A stretch of 64,000 nucleotides of DNA, from the NCBI GenBank assembly GCA_016208305.1, contig JACQYI010000056.1:124001-188000 (forward strand), read 5' to 3'. Shown here piece after piece: positions 45,922 through 58,764 of the stretch; position 1 is the first letter of the stretch; each line of letters begins with the position of its first letter. The position numbers and the translations under genes were made by a program. A model generated the notes under the pieces. That model was not told where the DNA came from, did not search any database, and was given only the letters and a program-made list of their open reading frames with translations. The stretch is from Oscillatoriophycideae cyanobacterium NC_groundwater_1537_Pr4_S-0.65um_50_18. GTDB taxonomy: Bacteria; Cyanobacteriota; Cyanobacteriia; Elainellales; Elainellaceae.

Positions 45922-46482
45922 ATGACTGCTCAAATTCTGGTTGAGAAAAAAAAGTTAGCTAAGCCTCCTTTGGAGATGCACTATTTGGGCGATCGCGTTT
46001 TGCGTCAGCCTGCCAAGCGAATCACCAAAATAGATGATGAAATTCGTCTGTTGGCCAAGCAGATGCTGCAAACCATGTACAGCGAAGACGGCATCGGCTT
46101 GGCTGCGCCCCAAGTTGGAGTAAATAAGCAGATCCTAGTTGTGGACTGTGAACCCGATGACCCAACCCATCTGCCCCTGATTCTGATCAATCCTGTGATT
46201 ACGCGATCGAGCCAGCAGACTTGTGTGGCGCAAGAAGGATGCCTCAGCATTCCCAAAGTATATTTAGATGTGGCGCGTCCTGAAGAAATTGACGTGTCCT
46301 ATAAAGATGAGCATGGCAGACCTCAAAAGCTGACGGCAAAAGATCTGTTGGCACGCGTCATCCAGCATGAAATGGATCATCTCAACGGGGTCATGTTTGT
46401 CGATCGCGTAGATAACAGCCTGGCGCGTAACCAAGAGCTATCGAAGCATGGTTTTGCCGTAGATGCCGTCAAGCCTGTTTAG
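45922..46482 (+). CDS. def: Peptide deformylase
   Basis: 186 residues. The three deformylase motifs are complete: GIGLAAPQVG at 57-66, EGCLS at 105-109 with the metal ligand Cys107, and HEMDH at 149-153 with the two His ligands and catalytic Glu. It removes formyl groups from nascent proteins. The N-terminal 18 residues are variable. Start ATG with GAGTTGCGGAGTC upstream. Alone on its transcript. Confidence 0.97.
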   Translation: MTAQILVEKKKLAKPPLEMHYLGDRVLRQPAKRITKIDDEIRLLAKQMLQTMYSEDGIGLAAPQVGVNKQILVVDCEPDDPTHLPLILINPVITRSSQQTCVAQEGCLSIPKVYLDVARPEEIDVSYKDEHGRPQKLTAKDLLARVIQHEMDHLNGVMFVDRVDNSLARNQELSKHGFAVDAVKPV

Positions 46483-46652: not shown

Positions 46653-46847
46653 GTGACTCCCAAAAGTGGCGTGCTGTTGGCTGGTTCTTGTGTGGCAGCG
46701 ATCGCGGCAGTAGGTTCTATCTTTGAGCTGTCTTCTGGAACCCCCCAATGGGGAACCTTGGTGACAGGTGTTATATTGGCGCTGACTGTGCCGTTAACTG
46801 GAATCTTTTTCTATGCGGCGGTTCAAGACGCGAGAGCCAATCAGTAA
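46653..46847 (+). CDS. Small two-helix membrane protein
   Basis: 64 residues starting at a GTG, with AAAAGGTAGGAT as ribosome-binding region. Helix one: SGVLLAGSCVAAIAAVGSIF. Helix two: LVTGVILALTVPLTGIFFYA. A short charged end follows. No family recognised; layout suits a conserved cyanobacterial inner-membrane protein. It precedes the FHA-PrsW gene by 33 bases and may be co-transcribed with it. Confidence 0.7.
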   Translation: MTPKSGVLLAGSCVAAIAAVGSIFELSSGTPQWGTLVTGVILALTVPLTGIFFYAAVQDARANQ

Positions 46848-46880
46848 TTTCCTCTCTGTGCTTCTACGGCATCCTTTCTG

Positions 46881-48278
46881 ATGACCGGATCTCCCTTTAA
46901 AGCAGCATTTCTTCAGCAAATTTCTCTTAACGGGGCAGGAGTCTCAGCTTCCTATCCGCTGAATTCCGAAACGGCAGTCGTTATTGGGCGCGACCCACGC
47001 TGCCAAATTGTTCTGGATTCTCAAATTCACGGGGGCGTGTCGCGGCAACATGCCAAAATCTGCCTGTCTGCAGATGCTCATTGGCAAATTTGCGATTTAA
47101 CCAGTGCCAACGGCACATTTGTGAACGGTCAGCGCTTGCAGGGCTGTCGCCTACTTCAGCAGGGCGATCGGATTACGCTGGCACAAGATGCCCAATTCGT
47201 ATTTCAGCTTGAGGCAGCACTTGTGTCTCCGCCAGCTCTGTGGCTCGATATTGATTTAGACAGCGAATCGGATAGCGAACCGATCTATGGCTCATTTTCT
47301 GATACCCAGAGGTATGAAAAGCATAAGCCTGATCTCTACAAGCTGCCTTCATCTGACCCCTCCGAAGCCGTAACGTTCAGTCAGCTTTTCCCGATTGTTT
47401 CTACGGGACGCGACCTAACCCAAAAAGCCTATCTCATTCCAGGAATCCTCACCGTTGCCTTTGTGGTGATGATGTTTATCTCGGTGGGCGATCCCCTAAT
47501 TTTTAATCTGCTGCTAGCTATCTACATCGCAGGTGGAGCCTATTACTTTATCTATCTCCTGTGCGGCAAACACAAGCCTTGGTGGCTGTTGGTGGGTACG
47601 GCTCTGACGACAGTATTTCTGTTGACTAGCCCCATGCTCGATCTGTTTGTCTTTATCTTCCGCGAAGTGCTACCCGGCGGCATTGCAACAGACAGCGCCT
47701 CTGAGAATTTTTTGATCTTGCTGATGCGGATGTTTCTGGGCGCTGGCTTAATGGAGGAGCTGCTGAAGGCTCTGCCTGTGTTTATGGTCTATTTTTGGGG
47801 CACAATGCTGCGATCGCCCCGACGAGAGCGCATCGGCGTTTGGGAGCCGCTAGATGGCATATTGCTGGGTACAGCTTCTGCGGTCGGGTTTACGCTTCTG
47901 GAAACCCTGGGACAATATGTGCCTGAAATTGTGAATTCTGTCTCGCTACAGTCAGGTCAAGGGGCAGCGCTGGGTGTGCAGCTTTTGATTCCCCGCGTTC
48001 TCGGCTCGATTTTTGGTCACATGGCCTACAGCGGCTATTTCGGCTACTTCATTGGTCTGAGCGTGCTAAAACCGCGCAGGCGCTGGCAGATTTTGGCAGT
48101 AGGATACCTCACGGCAGCAGCACTGCACGCCCTCTGGAATGCCACCGGGCTAATTAATTTCTTTGTGCTTGCCGTAATTGGAATTACGTCCTACGCTTTT
48201 CTAGCCGCTGCCATCTTGAAAGCTAGAGCGCTCTCTCCCACCCGTTCAGAAAACTTTGCCACTCGGTTTTCTAAGTAG
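46881..48278 (+). CDS. FHA domain fused to PrsW-type intramembrane protease
   Basis: 465 residues. An N-terminal FHA domain (about 20-110) has VVIGRDPRCQIVLDS, GGVSRQHAKICL and NGTFVNGQRLQ, the loops that bind phosphothreonine. After a linker there are about eight membrane helices of a PrsW-like protease with its motifs in order: EE at 292-293 and Lys296 in LMEELLKALP, Glu341 in GFTLLETLGQ, His380 in GHMAYSGYFGYF and His416 in LHALWN. PrsW enzymes cut anti-sigma factors or similar membrane substrates by site-1-type cleavage. The fusion implies protease recruitment by a phosphoprotein. Neighbours include PP2C and CHAT-FHA genes on the opposite strand. Confidence 0.88.
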   Translation: MTGSPFKAAFLQQISLNGAGVSASYPLNSETAVVIGRDPRCQIVLDSQIHGGVSRQHAKICLSADAHWQICDLTSANGTFVNGQRLQGCRLLQQGDRITLAQDAQFVFQLEAALVSPPALWLDIDLDSESDSEPIYGSFSDTQRYEKHKPDLYKLPSSDPSEAVTFSQLFPIVSTGRDLTQKAYLIPGILTVAFVVMMFISVGDPLIFNLLLAIYIAGGAYYFIYLLCGKHKPWWLLVGTALTTVFLLTSPMLDLFVFIFREVLPGGIATDSASENFLILLMRMFLGAGLMEELLKALPVFMVYFWGTMLRSPRRERIGVWEPLDGILLGTASAVGFTLLETLGQYVPEIVNSVSLQSGQGAALGVQLLIPRVLGSIFGHMAYSGYFGYFIGLSVLKPRRRWQILAVGYLTAAALHALWNATGLINFFVLAVIGITSYAFLAAAILKARALSPTRSENFATRFSK

Positions 48279-48360
48279 GATTGCAGGTTAATTGGCATAG
48301 CTCTCGTTGCTGGAGTAGCTTGTTGAGGGTTATCTCAATGCCTCTAATTTTGCAGTGCCT

Positions 48361-48975
48361 CTAGTTTTGATCGGTCGCAGTTTGATCGATCGCGTAACGG
48401 GCGATCGCCAGACTCAAGCGAGCTTGCTCAATGCTAGATAAATCTTTCCACTCGGCACAGCGTACTGATCGCAGCACAACTTCTAAAGCCTCGGTTTCAG
48501 AGCCACGCATGGCATAGGCAAAGGGACGCGCCAAGACCTGCAAATCTTCTTCACCCCAGCTAGGCAAACAGTCTTGAACCGCATGAACGAGCTGATCGGC
48601 CAGCGATAGATTAGAGGTGATGACCTGCTGAGCGCGTTGGACAATGTTGCTCAGCACCTGATGCGGCACCTGGGTGGTAAAACGCTGAAGAAATTCTGTG
48701 TTCAAAATTTGGCTAGCCGTATCGGCAACAGGTGCGATCGCCCAAAGCTGATCGAATTGAGTCGCAAGGCGTTGAGCCGGGGCAGCAAAATCTTCTTCAG
48801 TCCAGCCAGCCCTAAAAACTTCCTGCTCCAAAGCCGCAAAGTACGCCTCTGCTTCTGGCTCAGCCGGGTTACAGGGATAACAAGAGTTAGAGCTTTGCAA
48901 AATCATGTGCAGTAGCTCTAGTTCGGCTTGAGACTGAAAAGCGGAAATCAGCGGACGGATGGGTTCATTGGGCAT
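48361..48975 (-). CDS. Conserved-looking hypothetical protein
   Basis: 204 residues, acidic, alpha-helical in appearance (LISAFQSQAELELLHMILQS, AEPEAEAYFAALEQEVFRAG). Four cysteines occur, two as CYPC near residue 32-35. No catalytic motif and no signal or membrane segment. I do not recognise it. It lies on the minus strand 416 bases beyond the CHAT-FHA gene and may be a late member of that transcription unit. Confidence 0.7.
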   Translation of the reverse strand: MPNEPIRPLISAFQSQAELELLHMILQSSNSCYPCNPAEPEAEAYFAALEQEVFRAGWTEEDFAAPAQRLATQFDQLWAIAPVADTASQILNTEFLQRFTTQVPHQVLSNIVQRAQQVITSNLSLADQLVHAVQDCLPSWGEEDLQVLARPFAYAMRGSETEALEVVLRSVRCAEWKDLSSIEQARLSLAIARYAIDQTATDQN

Positions 48976-49391
48976 GACGGACTCCTCTAGCTTTTGTAAA
49001 TAGACCCTGCTGGGATGCTTACTGGAAATTACTACACATATTCTCTACGCCGTTCCGCAATCGATCGGAGCTTTATCAGGCTTTTGTAGATTTTTTATGC
49101 ATAGATTTCCCAAGCAAAGCTTTTTATGCATAGATTAGGCATTCTACCGCCAATCTTCTAGGTTTCTACAGCTAATCTTCTGAGGCAGGGTTTCAAGGAA
49201 AGCGTTGATAAAGAAGATGCAGCCTCAATAGAGCGAAAGTTAGGAGAGCAAAAGTTAGAGTTTGTTGACATACCAAGTAGGTCAACAGCCCTCAAAAAGC
49301 TGGCGTTCAAAAAATCTTTGGTTTGATTAAACTGAGATTTGATTAAACCCATAACCCTCATCAGCGCCTAGCTCTCAATCCTCATCAGCGC
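48976..49391. other. Intergenic region between the hypothetical and CHAT-FHA genes
   Basis: 416 bases. It contains TTTTTATGCATAGATT twice (49092-49107, 49121-49136), TTTGATTAAA twice near 49322-49343, and the start of the 24-bp tandem duplication at 49356. No coding sequence is supported. Confidence 0.6.
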
Positions 49392-49403
49392 CTAGCTCTC
49401 AAT
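49356..49403. repeat. Exact 24-bp tandem duplication spanning the CHAT-FHA stop codon
   Basis: CCTCATCAGCGCCTAGCTCT plus CAAT occurs at 49356-49379 and again at 49380-49403 without mismatch. The second copy includes the stop codon of the minus-strand CHAT-FHA gene (49392-49394), so the first copy duplicates the gene's last bases outside the frame. Confidence 0.92.
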
Positions 49404-51035
49404 GATGAACTCCAAGGCTTGGCTCCGAGGATTGCCAAACTTAAGCTGGGTCTTAGAGGGCAAGGGCACCTCTTGGTGATGCACTTTGTGCCAGCCTTCT
49501 GTACCCAAAACCCAAGTGCCCCAGCGCGATCGATCGCGTAATAGATAAGTTGGCTCTACATCTTCCTTCCAAGAAGAGTCGCGATAGAAAATCTCGGCAT
49601 GTTCACGAGATACCTCTGGCTGCTGCAACACCACATCATTGCCTTCACCGCGTCCCACCCGCATAATGCCCCCCCGCACCGACCACAGTTGATTGGGCGA
49701 AGCCACCGATCGCAAATAAGCCATTGGCGTTTGCCGCCCCAACCAGCTGGGCGAAGCATCTGGAATTTCTGTCACGCCCTCCGTAAAGGGGCGTATCAGT
49801 TCACCATTAAATTCGGGATGCATGTATAGGACAGGCAATGTCCAAGCGGGCTGATTGAACTTGTAAAGGGTTAGGAGCTGCTGACGGGCAATCGCCACGG
49901 CTTCATCAATGGGCGATCGTTCTGCCAAAGCGCGGGCAAAGACCTGGATGAAGGTTAAAGCTTCCTGATCGGCTACAGAATCGCGCATGCCCAGAACTGC
50001 AGGAACCCCATGATGGATTAAGACCTCGGCCAGACTGCTACGAGGGATAGTTTGCTGTCCCTGCTGGTCAGGCTGCGCGCCCCAGCAGGCATTAAAAACG
50101 GCCAACCTTACCTGACAGCGCACCAAAACCTGCGCCAGCTCTGTGCCGCTAATAGAGGCTTCAGGATGCAGCAGCAGCATTCCCCCATCAGGAGCCGGAG
50201 TGCCATGTCCTGCATAAAAAAGCACGTTGTAATTACCCGATTCCAGGCAATCAATGAGCTCTGCTGGGCTGGGCTGTACCAGCGTCTTCACCTGGCAGAG
50301 CGCAGGAGTCGTCATGCGATTATTTCGCAGATCGGTCGTAGCCGCGGTTTCTAAGACTTTAGCAAGCGAGGCAGCCTCTTGCTCTAGGTCAAGCTGAGCA
50401 CGGTTTGCCGAATCGGCACCCTCAGGAGCTGCATCGACGCCCAAAACAAGCAGAATTCTGAGAAATTGCTCCGATCGCAGAACTGGAAGCGGATCGACAT
50501 CACTGGTGGTGCGGCTAAACAAAATTTGCTGGCTCAGAGAAGCCGCCTGCTTGCCCGCCTGAGGCTGCATGATTTCCCAAGGCAGGGGAATTAAGTCGGG
50601 GTCGCGAATTTCTAGCCGCAACCGCAAGGGGCGCATCTGTCCCATTGCGATCCCCTGGCTTTGGTTAAAGCTGCTCTGAATAGAGCCGTCAAACAACCAT
50701 TGCCAAAGGCTGACCCCCAAGTTTTGCATCAGCCGCCCTGTGTAGCTAGTCGGCTGGTTGAGCTGGGGTGAACCCGTTGTATCCGGCGGGTTAAGGTCTA
50801 AGAGCAATGGGGGGGGTGCCATGCCCACATGCGGCACCATAGGCAAGCCTCGCAGAGAGAAAATGCTCTGCCAATGCTGCCATAACTCAGACAGGGGCTG
50901 AGTCCACATGCGATCGTGGTGGACATAGCCTCCAGGGTAGGGAGCCTGAAACACCCAAATTGCATAGTGTTGCGGCTCGGCAGCCGTTAAACGGGCGATC
51001 GCTAAACTGAGGCAAGGGTTATCAGACGCAGTCAT
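49392..51035 (-). CDS. CHAT protease domain fused to FHA domain
   Basis: 547 residues. Residues 130-410 form a CHAT domain (caspase-like, peptidase clan CD): LFYAGHGTPAPDGG with His277 and AVFNACWGAQPD with Cys317 form the dyad. HGVPAVLGMRDSVAD and the helix FIQVFARALAERSPIDEAVA follow. Residues about 455-540 are an FHA domain: MRVGRGEGNDVVLQQ and PEVSREHAEIFYR. The N-terminal 130 residues are of unknown type, perhaps substrate or partner binding. CHAT proteases act in regulated proteolysis and in some defence systems, and the FHA part would bind a phosphothreonine partner. The stop lies within a 24-bp duplication. The PP2C gene is upstream on the same strand. Confidence 0.88.
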   Translation of the reverse strand: MTASDNPCLSLAIARLTAAEPQHYAIWVFQAPYPGGYVHHDRMWTQPLSELWQHWQSIFSLRGLPMVPHVGMAPPPLLLDLNPPDTTGSPQLNQPTSYTGRLMQNLGVSLWQWLFDGSIQSSFNQSQGIAMGQMRPLRLRLEIRDPDLIPLPWEIMQPQAGKQAASLSQQILFSRTTSDVDPLPVLRSEQFLRILLVLGVDAAPEGADSANRAQLDLEQEAASLAKVLETAATTDLRNNRMTTPALCQVKTLVQPSPAELIDCLESGNYNVLFYAGHGTPAPDGGMLLLHPEASISGTELAQVLVRCQVRLAVFNACWGAQPDQQGQQTIPRSSLAEVLIHHGVPAVLGMRDSVADQEALTFIQVFARALAERSPIDEAVAIARQQLLTLYKFNQPAWTLPVLYMHPEFNGELIRPFTEGVTEIPDASPSWLGRQTPMAYLRSVASPNQLWSVRGGIMRVGRGEGNDVVLQQPEVSREHAEIFYRDSSWKEDVEPTYLLRDRSRWGTWVLGTEGWHKVHHQEVPLPSKTQLKFGNPRSQALEFIIES

Positions 51036-51347
51036 GTAAACCAGTAGACTTCAAGACCAAAACACACCAATTCCAGCTTCGCCCTACAGCTTAACCCGTG
51101 AGATTAATCTGTAAGGTTTAACCTACCCTACAAGTCTATCTGGTCTGAAGAGACAGATAAATGTCAACTTGTTCCTTTTTAGACTTCTTTTGACAAAGAA
51201 AGTGTGGGGATCATTCAATAATATTGGGGATCGCCAAATGTAGGGCAAACTAACCGAGTTTTGATACATTTGCTCACCTCAAAAGAAATTTAGCTGATCA
51301 TTAAAAAAATCAAGATTTGAAACCCGTTAGGGTGTTTTACCGATCGC
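51036..51347. other. Intergenic region between PP2C and CHAT-FHA genes
   Basis: 312 bases, AT-rich towards 51140-51320. I see no gene and no clear terminator, so the two genes may have separate promoters. Confidence 0.45.
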
Positions 51348-53810
51348 TCAAGGATTTTGTGGGTTGAATGTTACTGAATTCGTGCAAATGCCCTTTTGTT
51401 CCGGAGAACTTTGACTGAGACCAACCCAAGGCAAAATCTCTGCCTCGCGAATCCAGCCCGTTTGCCCAGGCTGAAGAAAGGCCGCAGGCGAACTTTCTGC
51501 CGGAGAAGGCAGCAGGTTTTCGGCGGAGGGTTCAACCCGGGGCAGTGCTTCAGGAGAAGCTGCCTCAGCTGAAGGCAATTCTGAAGGAGAAACTGAGGGC
51601 ACCTCTGAAGGTGTCTCCGGACTTGCACCCTCAGGGGTCGAACAAACTCGGAGTTGCACCCATCGATCTTGCGGTGTTGTTTCTCCGGTACTCAAGACTT
51701 CGAGGGTACTGCCCACTGGAATGGTTCCTAGCAATCGAGGGGCAGCCAGGTCAGATGAAGAAGACAGCGTTTGAGGATCGGAGAGGAGTGTTGGCGGTTT
51801 GCCCGCAGAGCTAAATCGCTGCAATTGAATGCGCAGTCCTACCGTCAAGGTAGGCAACGTGGTAATGGGGCTAGGCGCTACCATGGGTGAAGGCGAAGCT
51901 GTTGGACCCGCAATTGGCGACCTTGCCCGTTGTTTCCAAGTGGGCAGTAGCGCTGCAATTAACCCTAGACCTAAGCTAGCTAGAATCACAATACCTAACA
52001 GTAAAGGTAATGGATTAATCCCAGAAGATTTCTGCCGCAAAAGCTGAGTGCCGATCGCTGAGGAGGCCTCTGGTTCAGATGGAGGGGTTGCTAAAGAGGG
52101 AGCTACGATTGCCGTTGCAGCGGAGTCTTGCACAGCCGCTGGGGGCAAAGCTGACAGCGTTGGCACTGGCGATGCATCAGCCACCTGGCAATAGAGTAAG
52201 CCTACGGTGGTGTTGTCATAGCCATTCAGTCGATTCGCGATCTCGACCAACCGTTGCGCCATGACCGCCAGATCACCCTTGCCCAACAGCAGCGGCAAAA
52301 TTTCGGTATCCCAGCAAGAGTCCACACGTTCGTTGTCGCTCAAGCCATCAGAACAGAATAGGAAGATGCTGTCTTCATCCAAAATAAATCGTTGTACTGA
52401 GGGGTAGAGCAAGCTCGAAGCACCCATGCCCAGTGCCTGTACTAGCGACCCTGAACTAGGCTGCTGCAAAGCCTGCCGATAGGAACTGTAGCCTAGACGG
52501 ACCTCCCGTGAGGCCACATCGTCATCTAGTGTTATCTGATGGCAGCCCCAGCGGGTGATCCAGTAAGCGCGGCTATCGCCAATATGGGTGACATAAAGTT
52601 CGTACTCGCGCAGCAGCCCCATAACCAACGTAGTGCCCATTCGCTGGCGATCGAATCTTTGTTCGCTATCGTTGCGCTGGCTAATCTGATCATTCGCTAG
52701 GCAGATCGCTTTTTCTAGCTCTACAGTCAGGGTCACAGCATCTAAGGCTTCTGGCTTTAAAACTTGCAGGCGCTGCTCGACAGCAGCGATCGCTAAATGA
52801 GAAGCGACATCTCCCCCTTGATGCCCCCCAATCCCATCGCAGACGATAACGGTAGGGGTGACCGAAAGGGCTTGAGATCCAGAGCCGTTTGAGAGAGTCC
52901 CGTTCTGCACCGTTCCACCCTGCACCGTTCCGCTAGGGGGAAAGCAGGCATCTTCATTGCGCTGCCGGGTTGGCCCTTGGTCGCTTAGGGTAGCAATTTG
53001 AATGTGGCGACTTTGAACCTGAGCCACTTGACTAATTGCCTGGTCAAGCTGCTGCACCAAAAGTTCTGCATTGTGAAGCTGCCCTTGAATCAGCTGCTGA
53101 CTGATTTGCTGAAGGCGATCGGTGATCTCAGGTCTTGCCGTAGCTGACCACTGTAACCACAGCTCTCCCAAAGCCGACAAAGAAATTTCTTTTATATCCG
53201 ATTCCAGTTCCAATAAGCGTAAGATGCCTCCCTCGACCCGCAGCAAGTCTGGGTCTAAGAGGCTAGAGCCAACCTGTTCGCTACATAGCGGTTGCCACAA
53301 ATTGGCCATCTGCCACAGCCAGTTGAGCTGACGCAGAGCGCTAGCTTCCGCCCAAACCGTCAACAGGGGCGGAAAAAGCTGGATTTGGGTATTGACTATC
53401 GATTCGGATGCAGCAGGGTCAGATGCCGTTTCAGGCAAAACCCAGAGCGGGGCATAGTCAAGCAGCAAGGTGACATCATCGCGCACAGGAGTCGAAAACC
53501 ACTCATACACCTGTGGCACATGCAGCCGTAAAGGGGAAAGATGTAGGTAAGGTAAGTATTGTTCGGGAACCTCCGAAGCATTGGCTGATGGCAACCCCGG
53601 CTTTGTATCTAAAAAGACTCGATCGCCTTTACTGACATAGCGATCGCCCAGCAGTTCCCCCTTCTGCATAGACGCAACATTAGCGCCTAGCGCCCACAGA
53701 TATTGCCGAACTAATGGAGTCCGGCATTTTTGACAAAATTTATTCTCTTCAGGATTGAGAGCCTGACAGGTGGGGTTAGAGCAATAAAGCATTGCTGCGG
53801 CGTTTTGCAT
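51348..53810 (-). CDS. Zinc ribbon / pseudokinase-like / PP2C phosphatase / TM / SH3-like protein
   Basis: 820 residues. Residues 10-29 form a zinc ribbon (Cys at 10, 15, 26, 29). Residues about 50-260 look like a degenerate protein-kinase fold (see findings). PP2C motifs follow: SDQGPTRQRNEDACF at about 276, VIVCDGIGGHQGGDVASHLA, VTHIGDSRAYW, FCSDGLSDNE and GYDNTTVGLLY, all metal-binding Asp present. A membrane helix lies at about 600-624. A periplasmic SH3-like domain (GTIPVGSTLEVLSTG, DRWVQLRVC, GQTGWIREAEILP) is split by a Pro/Ser/Glu-rich repeat. It should dephosphorylate Ser/Thr on cytoplasmic partners. ATG at 53810 starts it; no kinase gene is adjacent. Confidence 0.86.
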   Translation of the reverse strand: MQNAAAMLYCSNPTCQALNPEENKFCQKCRTPLVRQYLWALGANVASMQKGELLGDRYVSKGDRVFLDTKPGLPSANASEVPEQYLPYLHLSPLRLHVPQVYEWFSTPVRDDVTLLLDYAPLWVLPETASDPAASESIVNTQIQLFPPLLTVWAEASALRQLNWLWQMANLWQPLCSEQVGSSLLDPDLLRVEGGILRLLELESDIKEISLSALGELWLQWSATARPEITDRLQQISQQLIQGQLHNAELLVQQLDQAISQVAQVQSRHIQIATLSDQGPTRQRNEDACFPPSGTVQGGTVQNGTLSNGSGSQALSVTPTVIVCDGIGGHQGGDVASHLAIAAVEQRLQVLKPEALDAVTLTVELEKAICLANDQISQRNDSEQRFDRQRMGTTLVMGLLREYELYVTHIGDSRAYWITRWGCHQITLDDDVASREVRLGYSSYRQALQQPSSGSLVQALGMGASSLLYPSVQRFILDEDSIFLFCSDGLSDNERVDSCWDTEILPLLLGKGDLAVMAQRLVEIANRLNGYDNTTVGLLYCQVADASPVPTLSALPPAAVQDSAATAIVAPSLATPPSEPEASSAIGTQLLRQKSSGINPLPLLLGIVILASLGLGLIAALLPTWKQRARSPIAGPTASPSPMVAPSPITTLPTLTVGLRIQLQRFSSAGKPPTLLSDPQTLSSSSDLAAPRLLGTIPVGSTLEVLSTGETTPQDRWVQLRVCSTPEGASPETPSEVPSVSPSELPSAEAASPEALPRVEPSAENLLPSPAESSPAAFLQPGQTGWIREAEILPWVGLSQSSPEQKGICTNSVTFNPQNP

Positions 53811-53966
53811 CAAGCCAGAAATACAGCAGTCCTATCAGGATATCTTAGACCTCTGCAGGCAGATCAAGTCTCTCTCTAGGGTGGGTTTTACTAAATTCTG
53901 TAATCAACACAAGCAGTTTCGGGAGGGTACTGCCCTAAGACCGCTTCTAAATCGATTACTTAATCA

Positions 53967-54687: not shown

Positions 54688-55602
54688 ATGAATAGATTCA
54701 CATCTCATCAGCGCCCTCAAGGTCAGGGTCGCGTGCAGCAACGCGGTAGCAAGCCAGATTCCCCTTGGGGTATTCACAGCTTCATCAGAAATTTATCTCT
54801 GGTGGCTACGGGCAGCTTTGCTTTAATTGCGATCTTTCTATTAGCAGGGGTCTGGCGATCGGGAACCAGTTTTTTCAGCGACCTCTATACGCTGTTTGAC
54901 AAACCTCAGCCAGAACCCAAAATTGATTTGCGAGCGATTGTCGTTCAGCAAGTGCGTAATGCAAGCGAACTGACAACTGCTGTATATGCAATGGAAACCG
55001 TTGTGCCTACGAGCCGCGATCGTACCGTGGGCGGCTACGTTGTGGGCACAACGACGCTACTCTACATCGCCTATGGCGAAGTTAGAGCCGGAATTGATCT
55101 TTCGGCGGTGCAACCCACTGATGTTCAGGTCAATGGCGATGCCATCACGCTGCGGCTGCCCTCCCCCAAGATCTTAGACAGCAAAATTGATGTCAATCGC
55201 TCTAAGGTGTACGACTACGATCGCGGCTTTATGGGCTTAGGCCCAGACGTAGCTCCAGAGCTTCAAGAGCTAGCTCAGCGCCAGACTCTAGAAAGAATGG
55301 TGGAATCAGCCTGCACCAGCGGCATCCTTCAGCAGGCAAACGATCGCGCCAAGATTGCCATTACCCAACTGCTTGGCACGACCTATAAAAGTTTATCTGT
55401 TGAGGAACAGCCGCTGCCGCCTGCCTGCGGAGCTAATACTCTGACTCCTTCCCTGCTGCCTCCATCCTCTCCTGAGCAGCCTACCCTTGAGCCGTTGATT
55501 CTTCCTTCTAGCTCCCCCCCTTCGCTTTCTTCCCCTTCGCTTTCTCCTCCTGCTAATGAGAACAGTTTGAGAGAGAACAGCTTGCCTCAGCCACCGTTCT
55601 AG
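54688..55602 (+). CDS. DUF4230 domain membrane protein
   Basis: 304 residues. A Gln/Arg-rich N-tail is followed by a membrane helix (LVATGSFALIAIFLLAGVWR, about 35-55), then a DUF4230 domain outside: VVQQVRNASELTTAVYAMET, RDRTVGGYVVGTTTLLYIAY, VRAGIDLSAVQPTDVQVNGD and KIDVNRSKVYDYDRGFMGLG. The C-terminal ~60 residues are Pro/Ser/Leu-rich low complexity (PSSSPPSLSSPSLSPP). Function unknown across the family. Starts at ATG 54688; likely monocistronic. Confidence 0.86.
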   Translation: MNRFTSHQRPQGQGRVQQRGSKPDSPWGIHSFIRNLSLVATGSFALIAIFLLAGVWRSGTSFFSDLYTLFDKPQPEPKIDLRAIVVQQVRNASELTTAVYAMETVVPTSRDRTVGGYVVGTTTLLYIAYGEVRAGIDLSAVQPTDVQVNGDAITLRLPSPKILDSKIDVNRSKVYDYDRGFMGLGPDVAPELQELAQRQTLERMVESACTSGILQQANDRAKIAITQLLGTTYKSLSVEEQPLPPACGANTLTPSLLPPSSPEQPTLEPLILPSSSPPSLSSPSLSPPANENSLRENSLPQPPF

Positions 55603-56109: not shown

Positions 56110-58764
56110 ATGGCAGACAAAGATAATCGCCTGAACCGTGCCGCGCGCCTGACTCTACCTGCTACAAACCGCAAAGATAGGTTGGGCGGAGCTGACCTAG
56201 AAGACTTGTTCCGATTTAATCTCAATGTCAGTAGCGCTAAGAGTAGCTTCAGTCTGGGTGTCGCTGGAATCAAGAGAGGAGCCAATTTTGACGTAGAGGT
56301 CTACAAGTTCAAGCGTACTGACCAACAGGTTCTCAAAAGCATTGGCAAGACTGAGTTTCGCACCATCCGAAGCGGCGTTCGCAGTGCTAACCTGCAACTC
56401 GTTGGCGCTTCTCGAAAGAGTGGCAACAAGAACGAAGCCCTCTCCATTGGGGAGCTAGCCAATGGGAGTTACGTCATTCGTGTCCTCCGTAAACAGGGCG
56501 ACAGTGCCTATAGGCTGTCGGCTAGTGCGACAGCGATTCCGATTCCGCCAGATCCTAATAATCCGGATCCTAATAATCCGGATCCTAATAATCCGGATCC
56601 TAATAATCCGGGTTCTACTGATCCGCTCAACTCAATTACGACTGCTCCTATCAAAAGCATTTCCGATGGAGCGATCATAGGTAAGGTGAGTGACACCGAC
56701 ACCCAGGATTTTTATAAAGTCACGCCAACCACATCGGGCGACTATCTATTTGACCTGAGTGGAGCCGCAGATGTCAATTTTGAGGTGATTGCAGCCGACC
56801 AAGCCACAACGCTCAAGCGGAGTGCCAATGCCGGAAACGACAAAGCGATCGTTCCCCTTACGGCTGGTACCACCTACTATTTTCGAGTTTTTCAGGCGGC
56901 ATCCGGAAACAACACCGATTACGCCTTGAGCGCGACACCGCTCACTGACAACTTCAGCGGCAAATATGACAACGGCAGCGGGCTAAACTCTGCTACGGCT
57001 CTGACGCTCACGAGTACATCCCAAACGCTCTCTAACTACGTTGTTGACAAGGGTGTTAATTCCCCCGAAGACCTCTTCACGTTCAATGTCGCGACGGATC
57101 AAGGGTTTGTCACGCTTGAGCTGACCAATATGCCGATCGGGAATCTGGGTTTGCAACTCTTTAGGGCTGGAGAAACGCCGGGTCAGGGCTTGACGCTCGA
57201 TCGCGCTAGAAATTTAGATGGTTCTTACCCTTCAGAAGTAATTGCAGGTCGAGTAGAGCAAGGTACCTACTATGTTCGAGTGATTCCGAGCAGCTCTGGT
57301 GAAGGCTCCACGTATGACCTGTCGCTGAAAATTGCCGATAAGACAGGACTTCCCGCTATCTCTAGAGATATTAAGTTTGGGGCTGATAGCTCTCAGCCTC
57401 AAAACATCACGGCTGTGGGCGAGCTAGCCTACTTCTCTGCTAGTGACGAAGATGGCACAGCGCTCTGGCGAACCGATGGGACTCTAGATGGAACGAAGAA
57501 AATTCGCGACTTCTCTTCGCTAGAGCAATTTGCGGTCGTAGGCTCCGGTACAAGCGCACGCCTCTACTTTGTAGCCAATGATGGCGCTACGGGTGCAGAA
57601 TTGTGGACAACAGATGGCAATTCTGCAACACAGGTTATTGACCTCCTAGCCGGATCGGCCAGTGGCTTACCTGAACAACTTGCAGCAGCAGGCAACACCC
57701 TCTACTTTGTGGGTAGCCCTGGCGCAACCAGTAAGGCACTCTACCGGGTCAATGGCACTACTGTAACCATGATTGCTCGGGGTAATGACACCATTACTAA
57801 CCCCGATGGCAGTATCAGCACGGCTCCTGTGATCAACGCTTTTGCTAACCTGACTGGCATTGGTCAAACCCTTTACTTCTCTGGAAGTACGAGTGTACCT
57901 GAGGGAGGTTCAACTCGCAGTACAGGCGGAGAACTGTTTAGCATTATTAATGGCCAGACGACTTTAACCCTTACAGAGTTAAGAGCAGGCACTAGCAGCT
58001 CTAACCCCAGCAACTTTATTTTGGTAGGAAATAAGCTGTTTGCCACGGCATTAACAGACAATGGCTCTGGCGCTAGAGAACTCGTTCGAATTGATGCTTT
58101 GGGTGCTACGCCTAGCTATGCGGTCGTCCGTTCTTCAGACAGCAACTCTCTCACGTTTACCAATAACCAGAAGCTGCAATATACCGTCACTGACAACGGC
58201 GCGCTTTACTTTACGGCAAACGCCGACGTCGAAGGGGCAGAGCTATTCAAGCTTGATAATCCAAATGCAGTAGCAGTGAACGGTTTCTTGGATACGGGCG
58301 CAGTCATCAAAGATATTAAAGCTGGATTTGAAGGTTCTACTCCCTCTAACCTGGTTCACATTGGCAATACTGTATATTTCTTTGCCGATGATAATCGCTT
58401 GGTTGACGATGGTACAGGTTCAGGCAATACGATTCTACAGGGTTCAGGCAAGGAACTCTGGAGTACAAACGGCACCTCTGGAGGCACTACCATTGTCAAA
58501 GACATTCAGGGAGGGACAGGCAGCGGTATCGGCGACGATGCAGAAATGGTTGTGTTTGGCGGCAAGCTGTACTTCACGGCCAATGACGGCAGTTCTGGAA
58601 CAGAGATTTGGGAGAGCAATGGGTTATCAGCAGGTACGCTCTTGCAACAGATCAACTCTGTCCCAGCCCAAGGCTCTGACCCTTCTCAGTTGACAATTGT
58701 GGGCAGCAACCTGTTCTTTGCGGCAACAGATGGACTTAACGGCGAAGAACTCTGGTCCATCTAA
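56110..58764 (+). CDS. PPC-domain and ELWxxDGT repeat protein
   Basis: 884 residues. The N-terminal half has three pre-peptidase C-terminal (PPC)-like beta domains: DLEDLFRFNLNV with SFSLGVAGI, SDTDTQDFYKVTPTTSGDYL, and SPEDLFTFNVATDQGFVTLE. A Pro-Asn-Asp linker built from a 5-residue unit (PDPNN, four copies) lies between the first two. The second half is a beta-propeller-like array of ELWxxDGT-type repeats: ALWRTDGTLDGTKKI, ELWTTDGN, ELWSTNGTSGGTTIV, EIWESNGLSAGT, ending GEELWSI. Such proteins are usually secreted or surface-attached. No Sec signal is visible at the ATG start used, which is odd. Function unknown; calcium-dependent adhesion is a guess. Confidence 0.85.
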   Translation: MADKDNRLNRAARLTLPATNRKDRLGGADLEDLFRFNLNVSSAKSSFSLGVAGIKRGANFDVEVYKFKRTDQQVLKSIGKTEFRTIRSGVRSANLQLVGASRKSGNKNEALSIGELANGSYVIRVLRKQGDSAYRLSASATAIPIPPDPNNPDPNNPDPNNPDPNNPGSTDPLNSITTAPIKSISDGAIIGKVSDTDTQDFYKVTPTTSGDYLFDLSGAADVNFEVIAADQATTLKRSANAGNDKAIVPLTAGTTYYFRVFQAASGNNTDYALSATPLTDNFSGKYDNGSGLNSATALTLTSTSQTLSNYVVDKGVNSPEDLFTFNVATDQGFVTLELTNMPIGNLGLQLFRAGETPGQGLTLDRARNLDGSYPSEVIAGRVEQGTYYVRVIPSSSGEGSTYDLSLKIADKTGLPAISRDIKFGADSSQPQNITAVGELAYFSASDEDGTALWRTDGTLDGTKKIRDFSSLEQFAVVGSGTSARLYFVANDGATGAELWTTDGNSATQVIDLLAGSASGLPEQLAAAGNTLYFVGSPGATSKALYRVNGTTVTMIARGNDTITNPDGSISTAPVINAFANLTGIGQTLYFSGSTSVPEGGSTRSTGGELFSIINGQTTLTLTELRAGTSSSNPSNFILVGNKLFATALTDNGSGARELVRIDALGATPSYAVVRSSDSNSLTFTNNQKLQYTVTDNGALYFTANADVEGAELFKLDNPNAVAVNGFLDTGAVIKDIKAGFEGSTPSNLVHIGNTVYFFADDNRLVDDGTGSGNTILQGSGKELWSTNGTSGGTTIVKDIQGGTGSGIGDDAEMVVFGGKLYFTANDGSSGTEIWESNGLSAGTLLQQINSVPAQGSDPSQLTIVGSNLFFAATDGLNGEELWSI
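56551..56610 (+). repeat. Coding 15-bp exact tandem repeat, four copies
   Basis: GATCCTAATAATCCG occurs four times at 56551, 56566, 56581 and 56596, all exact, encoding the PDPNN linker unit. As the unit is a multiple of three bases, gain or loss keeps frame. Confidence 0.95.

Follow-up and report, generated by a model that had tools for sequence, protein, structure and literature searches.

The locus described here lies in a 64,000-nucleotide stretch (the window) of contig JACQYI010000056.1 from the Oscillatoriophycideae cyanobacterium NC_groundwater_1537_Pr4_S-0.65um_50_18 (GCA_016208305.1, positions 124,001 to 188,000). It encodes a caspase-like CHAT protease fused to an FHA domain (CHAT-FHA) and, downstream of it, an orphan helical protein that is probably its partner (open reading frame ORF204). 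A first-pass annotation had joined two FHA-bearing proteases, FHA-PrsW and CHAT-FHA, and a large PP2C phosphatase into one module spanning 46653-53810. All three proteins are present, each domain scores above its Pfam gathering score, and the catalytic residues that were checked are intact. The left boundary was misplaced: position 46653 begins a separate 64-residue frame, s64, and FHA-PrsW starts at 46881, after an in-frame stop. The genes ndhM, PP2C, CHAT-FHA and ORF204 follow one another on one strand, and PrsW, s64 and def face them on the other.

49392-51035, minus strand: CHAT-FHA protease, 547 residues; Pfam CHAT 73.9 bits, FHA 46.3 bits
48361-48975, minus strand: ORF204, acidic orphan of 204 residues, predicted all-helical, downstream of CHAT-FHA
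51348-53810, minus strand: PP2C phosphatase, ATG at 53810, frame also opening with TTG at 53813; Pfam PP2C_2 37.7 bits
46881-48278, plus strand: FHA-PrsW, 465 residues; Pfam FHA 70.8 bits, PrsW 123.2 bits
46653-46847, plus strand: s64, small protein of 64 residues upstream of FHA-PrsW
45922-46482, plus strand: def, peptide deformylase, flanking housekeeping gene; Pfam 177.9 bits
53967-54335, minus strand: ndhM, flanking housekeeping gene; Pfam 173.2 bits

The His and Cys residues of CHAT domains, the Glu and His residues of PrsW and the Asp residues of PP2C are those expected for activity, and each set was examined in an alignment of family members. CHAT-FHA carries its CHAT domain at residues 107-393 (window 49857-50717; gathering score 24) and its FHA domain at residues 459-534 (window 49434-49661; gathering score 20.7). 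Both domains were matched in all 22 aligned members, and the His277-Cys317 dyad is invariant among them. FHA domains bind phosphothreonine through Gly-Arg, Ser-x-x-His and SxNGT residues. The FHA domain of CHAT-FHA has invariant Ser476, Gly506 and Thr507 (n = 22), and Arg462 and His479 are each found in 21 of the 22 sequences.

ORF204 has a computed isoelectric point of 4.4, and its AlphaFold2 model consists of helices only (mean predicted local distance difference test score (pLDDT) 81.3, predicted template modeling score 0.59). The window copy matches no Pfam family at E ≤ 0.1, and no consistent family emerges among 50 members. A PDB fold search with the model gave no match at E ≤ 0.001. Profile searches of the PDB returned a designed helical bundle (E = 5.1e-05, no stretch passing alone), m4D2 (E = 0.0057) and ZorA (E = 0.039), but these best matches probably reflect helix composition and were disregarded. 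Arg157 is invariant in the alignment of 50 sequences (drawn from 69 extracted sequences and the window copy) and sits between two predicted helices. Its use as a cleavage site would be speculation.

FHA-PrsW carries an FHA domain at residues 33-100 (46977-47180; gathering score 20.7) and a PrsW domain at residues 232-441 (47574-48203; gathering score 23.5). In PrsW proteases the Glu-Glu and His residues are catalytic, and Glu292, Glu293, His380 and His416 are invariant in 22 of 22 sequences (of 32 extracted, the window copy included). The FHA domain also keeps Arg37, Ser54, His57 and Asn77, positions associated with phosphothreonine binding, in all 22. The small s64 protein upstream is hydrophobic by eye, has no Pfam match at E ≤ 0.1, and is 58-98% identical to its matches upstream of PrsW in relatives.

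The PP2C domain covers approximately residues 270-545 (numbering from the TTG; gathering score 24) and is preceded by a four-cysteine prefix (24.7 bits against a cut-off of 24). PP2C Asp residues bind metal, and Asp288, Asp326, Asp413, Asp489 and Asp533 are invariant in 35 of 35 sequences (of 51 extracted, the window copy included). The fold match to 2pk0_A has a Z score of 26.3 and a root-mean-square deviation (rmsd) of 2.1 over 236 aligned residues, and the model of the whole protein has a mean pLDDT of 78.2. The predicted helix at residues 602-629 may be a membrane span. The tail beyond it contains Cys724 in 35 of 35 sequences and Cys810 in 34 of 35, and the long helix together with the two tail cysteines would fit a membrane protein whose tail is extracytoplasmic. 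Two features ascribed to this protein by the first-pass annotation were examined further. The predicted strands and helices of residues ~37-264 do follow a kinase-like order, but profile comparison (hhalign) with eight kinases of the same genome gave a probability of 0.4%, and a profile search of PDB sequences with this segment returned no kinase at E ≤ 1 (alignment of 33 of the 35 sequences; L104 and L106 were dropped for an insertion). Kinase homology of the segment by profile is not significant. Two listings of 50 matches each contain no kinase, but they are filled by the PP2C domain and this absence is uninformative. Likewise, β strands are predicted in the tail that had been called SH3-like, but at E ≤ 0.01 no Pfam SH3 family is matched by any of the 35 members.

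The neighborhood is conserved. The 80 named loci compared are the best 80 of 426 relatives, so that near relatives are over-represented among the 80, and the window brings the total to 81. Clustering of their open reading frames placed CHAT-FHA at 81 loci, ORF204 at 70, PP2C at 52, ndhM at 31, FHA-PrsW at 30, def at 25 and s64 at 21. Beyond these seven families none exceeds 12 of the 81 loci, and five more are found at 8-12. Among the named cyanobacterial loci with enough DNA, ORF204 is encoded no more than 1.5 kb downstream of CHAT-FHA, in the same orientation, in 65 of 72, PP2C precedes CHAT-FHA in 43 of 61, and ndhM is upstream in 26 of 53. FHA-PrsW faces CHAT-FHA in 26 of 63, and def lies downstream on the opposite strand within 5.5 kb in 22 of 61. 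Close named relatives of the genome include Drouetiella hepatica and other Leptolyngbyaceae. Genomes of the same family carry CHAT-FHA in 35 of 36 cases and an FHA-PrsW match in 36 of 36. PrsW is adjacent on the same contig in 31 of those 35 CHAT-FHA genomes and PP2C in at least 27, which is more clustering than expected by chance.

Co-occurrence across the phylum was assessed in one sample of 292 genomes; these are related, so the counts are not independent events, and the presence sets hinge on the E-value cut-offs given. Hypergeometric values, which take no account of relatedness, were disregarded. HetF, a paralogue of similar spread (62 genomes, E ≤ 1e-100), served as the control. CHAT-FHA is present in 68 genomes (E ≤ 1e-60), ORF204 in 70 (E ≤ 1e-5) and FHA-PrsW in 64 (E ≤ 1e-40). 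CHAT-FHA and ORF204 occur together in 67, and in 50 of these they are within 5 kb and always on the same strand. The Jaccard index with CHAT-FHA is 0.94 for ORF204, 0.81 for HetF, 0.68 for PP2C and 0.65 for PrsW. Among the 14 genomes in which CHAT-FHA and HetF are discordant, the presence or absence of ORF204 agrees with that of CHAT-FHA in 12, and among the 28 in which CHAT-FHA and PrsW are discordant it does so in 25. In family f5, ORF204 is found in six of the seven CHAT-FHA genomes; in f13, it is in the sole CHAT-FHA genome and absent from the two listed genomes without CHAT-FHA.

The near one-to-one co-occurrence of CHAT-FHA and ORF204 also holds when the genes are unlinked, that is, not within 5 kb on one contig. 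In four of the 17 such pairs the two genes share a contig but are widely separated; in the other 13 they are on separate contigs, and contig breaks in drafts may hide linkage. The partner was not found in the DNA around ORF204 in 11 of these 17 genomes (two of the stretches are shortened by contig ends) or around CHAT-FHA in nine of those 11. No other neighbor family recurs in more than three of these places around either gene. CHAT-FHA and ORF204 are jointly present or absent in nearly every genome examined and therefore probably work as a pair.

Lack of a conserved neighborhood or of co-occurrence had been named as what would refute the first-pass module. The conserved neighborhood speaks against such a refutation: within 5 kb, the 68 CHAT-FHA genomes have ORF204 in 50, PP2C in 39 (best PP2C place per genome only) and FHA-PrsW in 35. 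The unit nevertheless differs from the proposed triad, since the tight pair is CHAT-FHA with ORF204, which had been overlooked, and PrsW and PP2C fall below the HetF control. The absence of a Ser/Thr kinase extends from the window to its whole contig. It is not informative, as the 6.9 Mb genome has 30 kinase matches above cut-off; it also has 13 FHA matches.

The reading we favor is a phospho-gated CHAT-FHA protease that has ORF204 as its dedicated partner, PP2C as the likely eraser and FHA-PrsW as a possible second output, a proposal to which we give slightly less than an even chance. A cellular Ser/Thr kinase would phosphorylate a threonine on a target or scaffold, and the FHA domain would bring the CHAT protease to the phosphorylated site. 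PP2C would reverse the mark, with its tail and kinase-like amino-terminal part as possible inputs. ORF204 would most likely be cleaved by the protease as its substrate; the second possibility is a regulator by which the protease is held or presented. We place the substrate role first because, by analogy, genes for CHAT substrates commonly lie close to that of the protease (PMC9729208) and HetF can cleave PatU3 (according to the review PMC12288457). FHA-PrsW may be a second, intramembrane output that reads the same mark, a role supported by linkage in part of the lineages only. An extended version, in which this is a phosphothreonine-gated caspase-like pathway of the cyanobacterial core genome, with a membrane PP2C that sets the phosphorylation state in response to extracytoplasmic input, FHA-delivered CHAT activity, ORF204 as the single substrate or regulator and FHA-PrsW as a second output in part of the lineages, we consider doubtful. 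If the pair is real, cyanobacteria possess a caspase-like protease linked with Ser/Thr phosphorylation and with a single uncharacterized partner, in a conserved chromosomal block rather than a defense island. It would also provide a testable protease-partner pair for roles of bacterial CHAT proteins outside immunity, and the function of the orphan ORF204 family could be approached through its protease.

Several observations weigh against this proposal. At position 505 of CHAT-FHA the Asn of SxNGT is retained in two of 22 sequences and replaced by an aromatic residue (Tyr, Phe or Trp) in the other 20, so phosphothreonine binding by CHAT-FHA is not assured; phosphopeptide binding does persist in other FHA domains that have such a replacement. 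There is no Thr in the invariant or nearly invariant columns of the ORF204 alignment. The spacers between PP2C, CHAT-FHA and ORF204 in the window are ~310 and ~420 bp, and because of these gaps a single tight operon is not suggested. Signal scans of the window were also at the shuffled level (promoter-like sites, 3 against 6.4 in shuffles; terminator-like sites, 8 against 8.9), which further weakens that arrangement. ORF204 is found without CHAT-FHA in G040, G157 and G241; in a profile search for CHAT-FHA at E ≤ 1e-20, G040 and G157 had no match and G241 had no match other than its HetF-like gene. Conversely, CHAT-FHA is present in G271, a draft of ~300 contigs, in which no ORF204 was found at E ≤ 1. 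Of the 68 CHAT-FHA genomes, 16 lack FHA-PrsW at the cut-off, and 12 further genomes have FHA-PrsW but not CHAT-FHA. PP2C, paralogue included, is in 97 of the 292 genomes among the matches listed (E ≤ 1e-65). Both co-occur with CHAT-FHA less than HetF does.

As a separate observation, the DNA between PP2C and ORF204 in G040 (L144:6178-6342) matches the last 55 residues of CHAT-FHA, the end of its FHA domain, with 44% identity (E = 5e-09). By its sequence this stretch looks like the remnant of a lost CHAT-FHA gene.

The behavior of PP2C and PrsW away from CHAT-FHA bears on a different explanation, that the block is an old chromosomal segment without a shared pathway and that a functional link exists only between CHAT-FHA and ORF204. 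At all four places examined away from CHAT-FHA, PP2C is found no more than 1.5 kb from ndhM. Of 16 PrsW places examined that are distant from CHAT-FHA or in genomes lacking it, six retain s64 and/or def (DNA of 10 of the 12 genomes outside the CHAT-FHA set). Because PP2C stays near ndhM and PrsW is sometimes near s64 or def, inherited synteny may account for some of the block. The housekeeping genes ndhM and def are kept about as often as PrsW (31 and 25 against 30 of 81 loci), and the Jaccard values of PrsW and PP2C below that of HetF point the same way. Inherited synteny leaves unexplained the linkage of PP2C to CHAT-FHA in nine of 18 CHAT-FHA families and the fact that families outside the block reach at most 12 of 81 loci; a block that unites two FHA proteases with a PP2C would also be a functionally matched set. 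We regard this explanation as a serious possibility, although not as the probable one. Two proteases under one phospho-switch, as first proposed, remain unproven because PrsW and PP2C fall below the HetF control and PP2C tracks ndhM.

Two further explanations concern what the protease does. In a regulated cell death or anti-phage system, CHAT-FHA would be a caspase-like executioner and ORF204 a death effector that it cleaves when the cell is infected or stressed. Craspase is a system in which CHAT proteases act, and they reportedly cleave gasdermin (PMC9729208). The CHAT region has weak PADLOC matches to BovA (E = 1.6e-06) and SAVED_CHAT (E = 0.001), but there is no strong match among the six proteins scanned, where the remaining hit is a zinc-ribbon match to PD-T4-6 (E = 0.0025). 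Defense islands are patchy in distribution, unlike CHAT-FHA, which has housekeeping neighbors and is nearly constant in its family, and the acidic, all-helical ORF204 has no consistent Pfam match. These data make a death system improbable. We see a similarly slim chance of a HetF-like role, in which CHAT-FHA would be another protease of the HetF type, acting in cell division or the development of filaments, and ORF204 would be its regulator or substrate, as PatU3 is for HetF. PatU3 is cleavable by HetF (PMC12288457), the CHAT region matches the HetF family over residues 105-415 and shares 35-42% identity with HetF-like genes, and both genes are carried by 58 of the 72 genomes with either. However, the family score is far under the NCBIfam CellDiv_HetF cut-off (179.8 against 1200 bits), an FHA domain replaces the membrane and repeat parts of HetF, and ORF204 sides with CHAT-FHA rather than HetF in the discordant genomes.

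Two genes beyond ndhM in the window are also of note. A DUF4230 protein at 54688-55602 (plus strand) adjoins ndhM and is kept in 12 of the 81 loci. An 884-residue protein at 56110-58764 (plus strand) has repeats around ELW by eye and is possibly a surface or secreted protein.

Among the titles and abstract starts of the matches listed, no description of this gene set or of the ORF204 partnership was found in the open-licence literature. FHA-PrsW fusions as such are mentioned in PMC3482391. According to the same source, PrsW cleaves the anti-sigma factor RsiW in Bacillus subtilis. FHA-PrsW resembles it in keeping the PrsW domain with its Glu-Glu and His residues and differs by its N-terminal FHA domain. 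The PP2C protein shares its fold with tPphA (Z score 25.9, rmsd 2.6, 232 aligned residues, 31-32% identity) and, with the cyanobacterial phosphatases tPphA, PRK14559 and Stp1/IreP, the metal-binding Asp residues and four-cysteine prefix. It differs from them by an extra N-terminal segment, a predicted membrane helix and a C-terminal tail, and it scores below the NCBIfam cut-offs for PRK14559 (256.9 against 374 bits) and Stp1/IreP (140.1 against 230 bits).

The closest relatives of the protease itself are HetF and Craspase. HetF is likewise cyanobacterial, its distribution overlaps that of CHAT-FHA, and the CHAT regions align over up to ~340 residues. A separate HetF-like gene (G000:C4) scores 810 bits, also under the HetF cut-off. 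CHAT-FHA is shorter and has an FHA domain where HetF has its membrane and TPR parts (PMC8406250), and it has its own partner in ORF204. The Craspase pair of TPR-CHAT and Csx30 also combines a His-Cys CHAT protease with a neighbor-encoded partner (PMC9729208), whereas CHAT-FHA carries FHA rather than TPR and its proposed gating would be by phosphothreonine, not RNA. CHAT proteases, HetF, PrsW and PP2C are individually known, and the new part is an FHA-fused CHAT protease with a neighbor-encoded partner.

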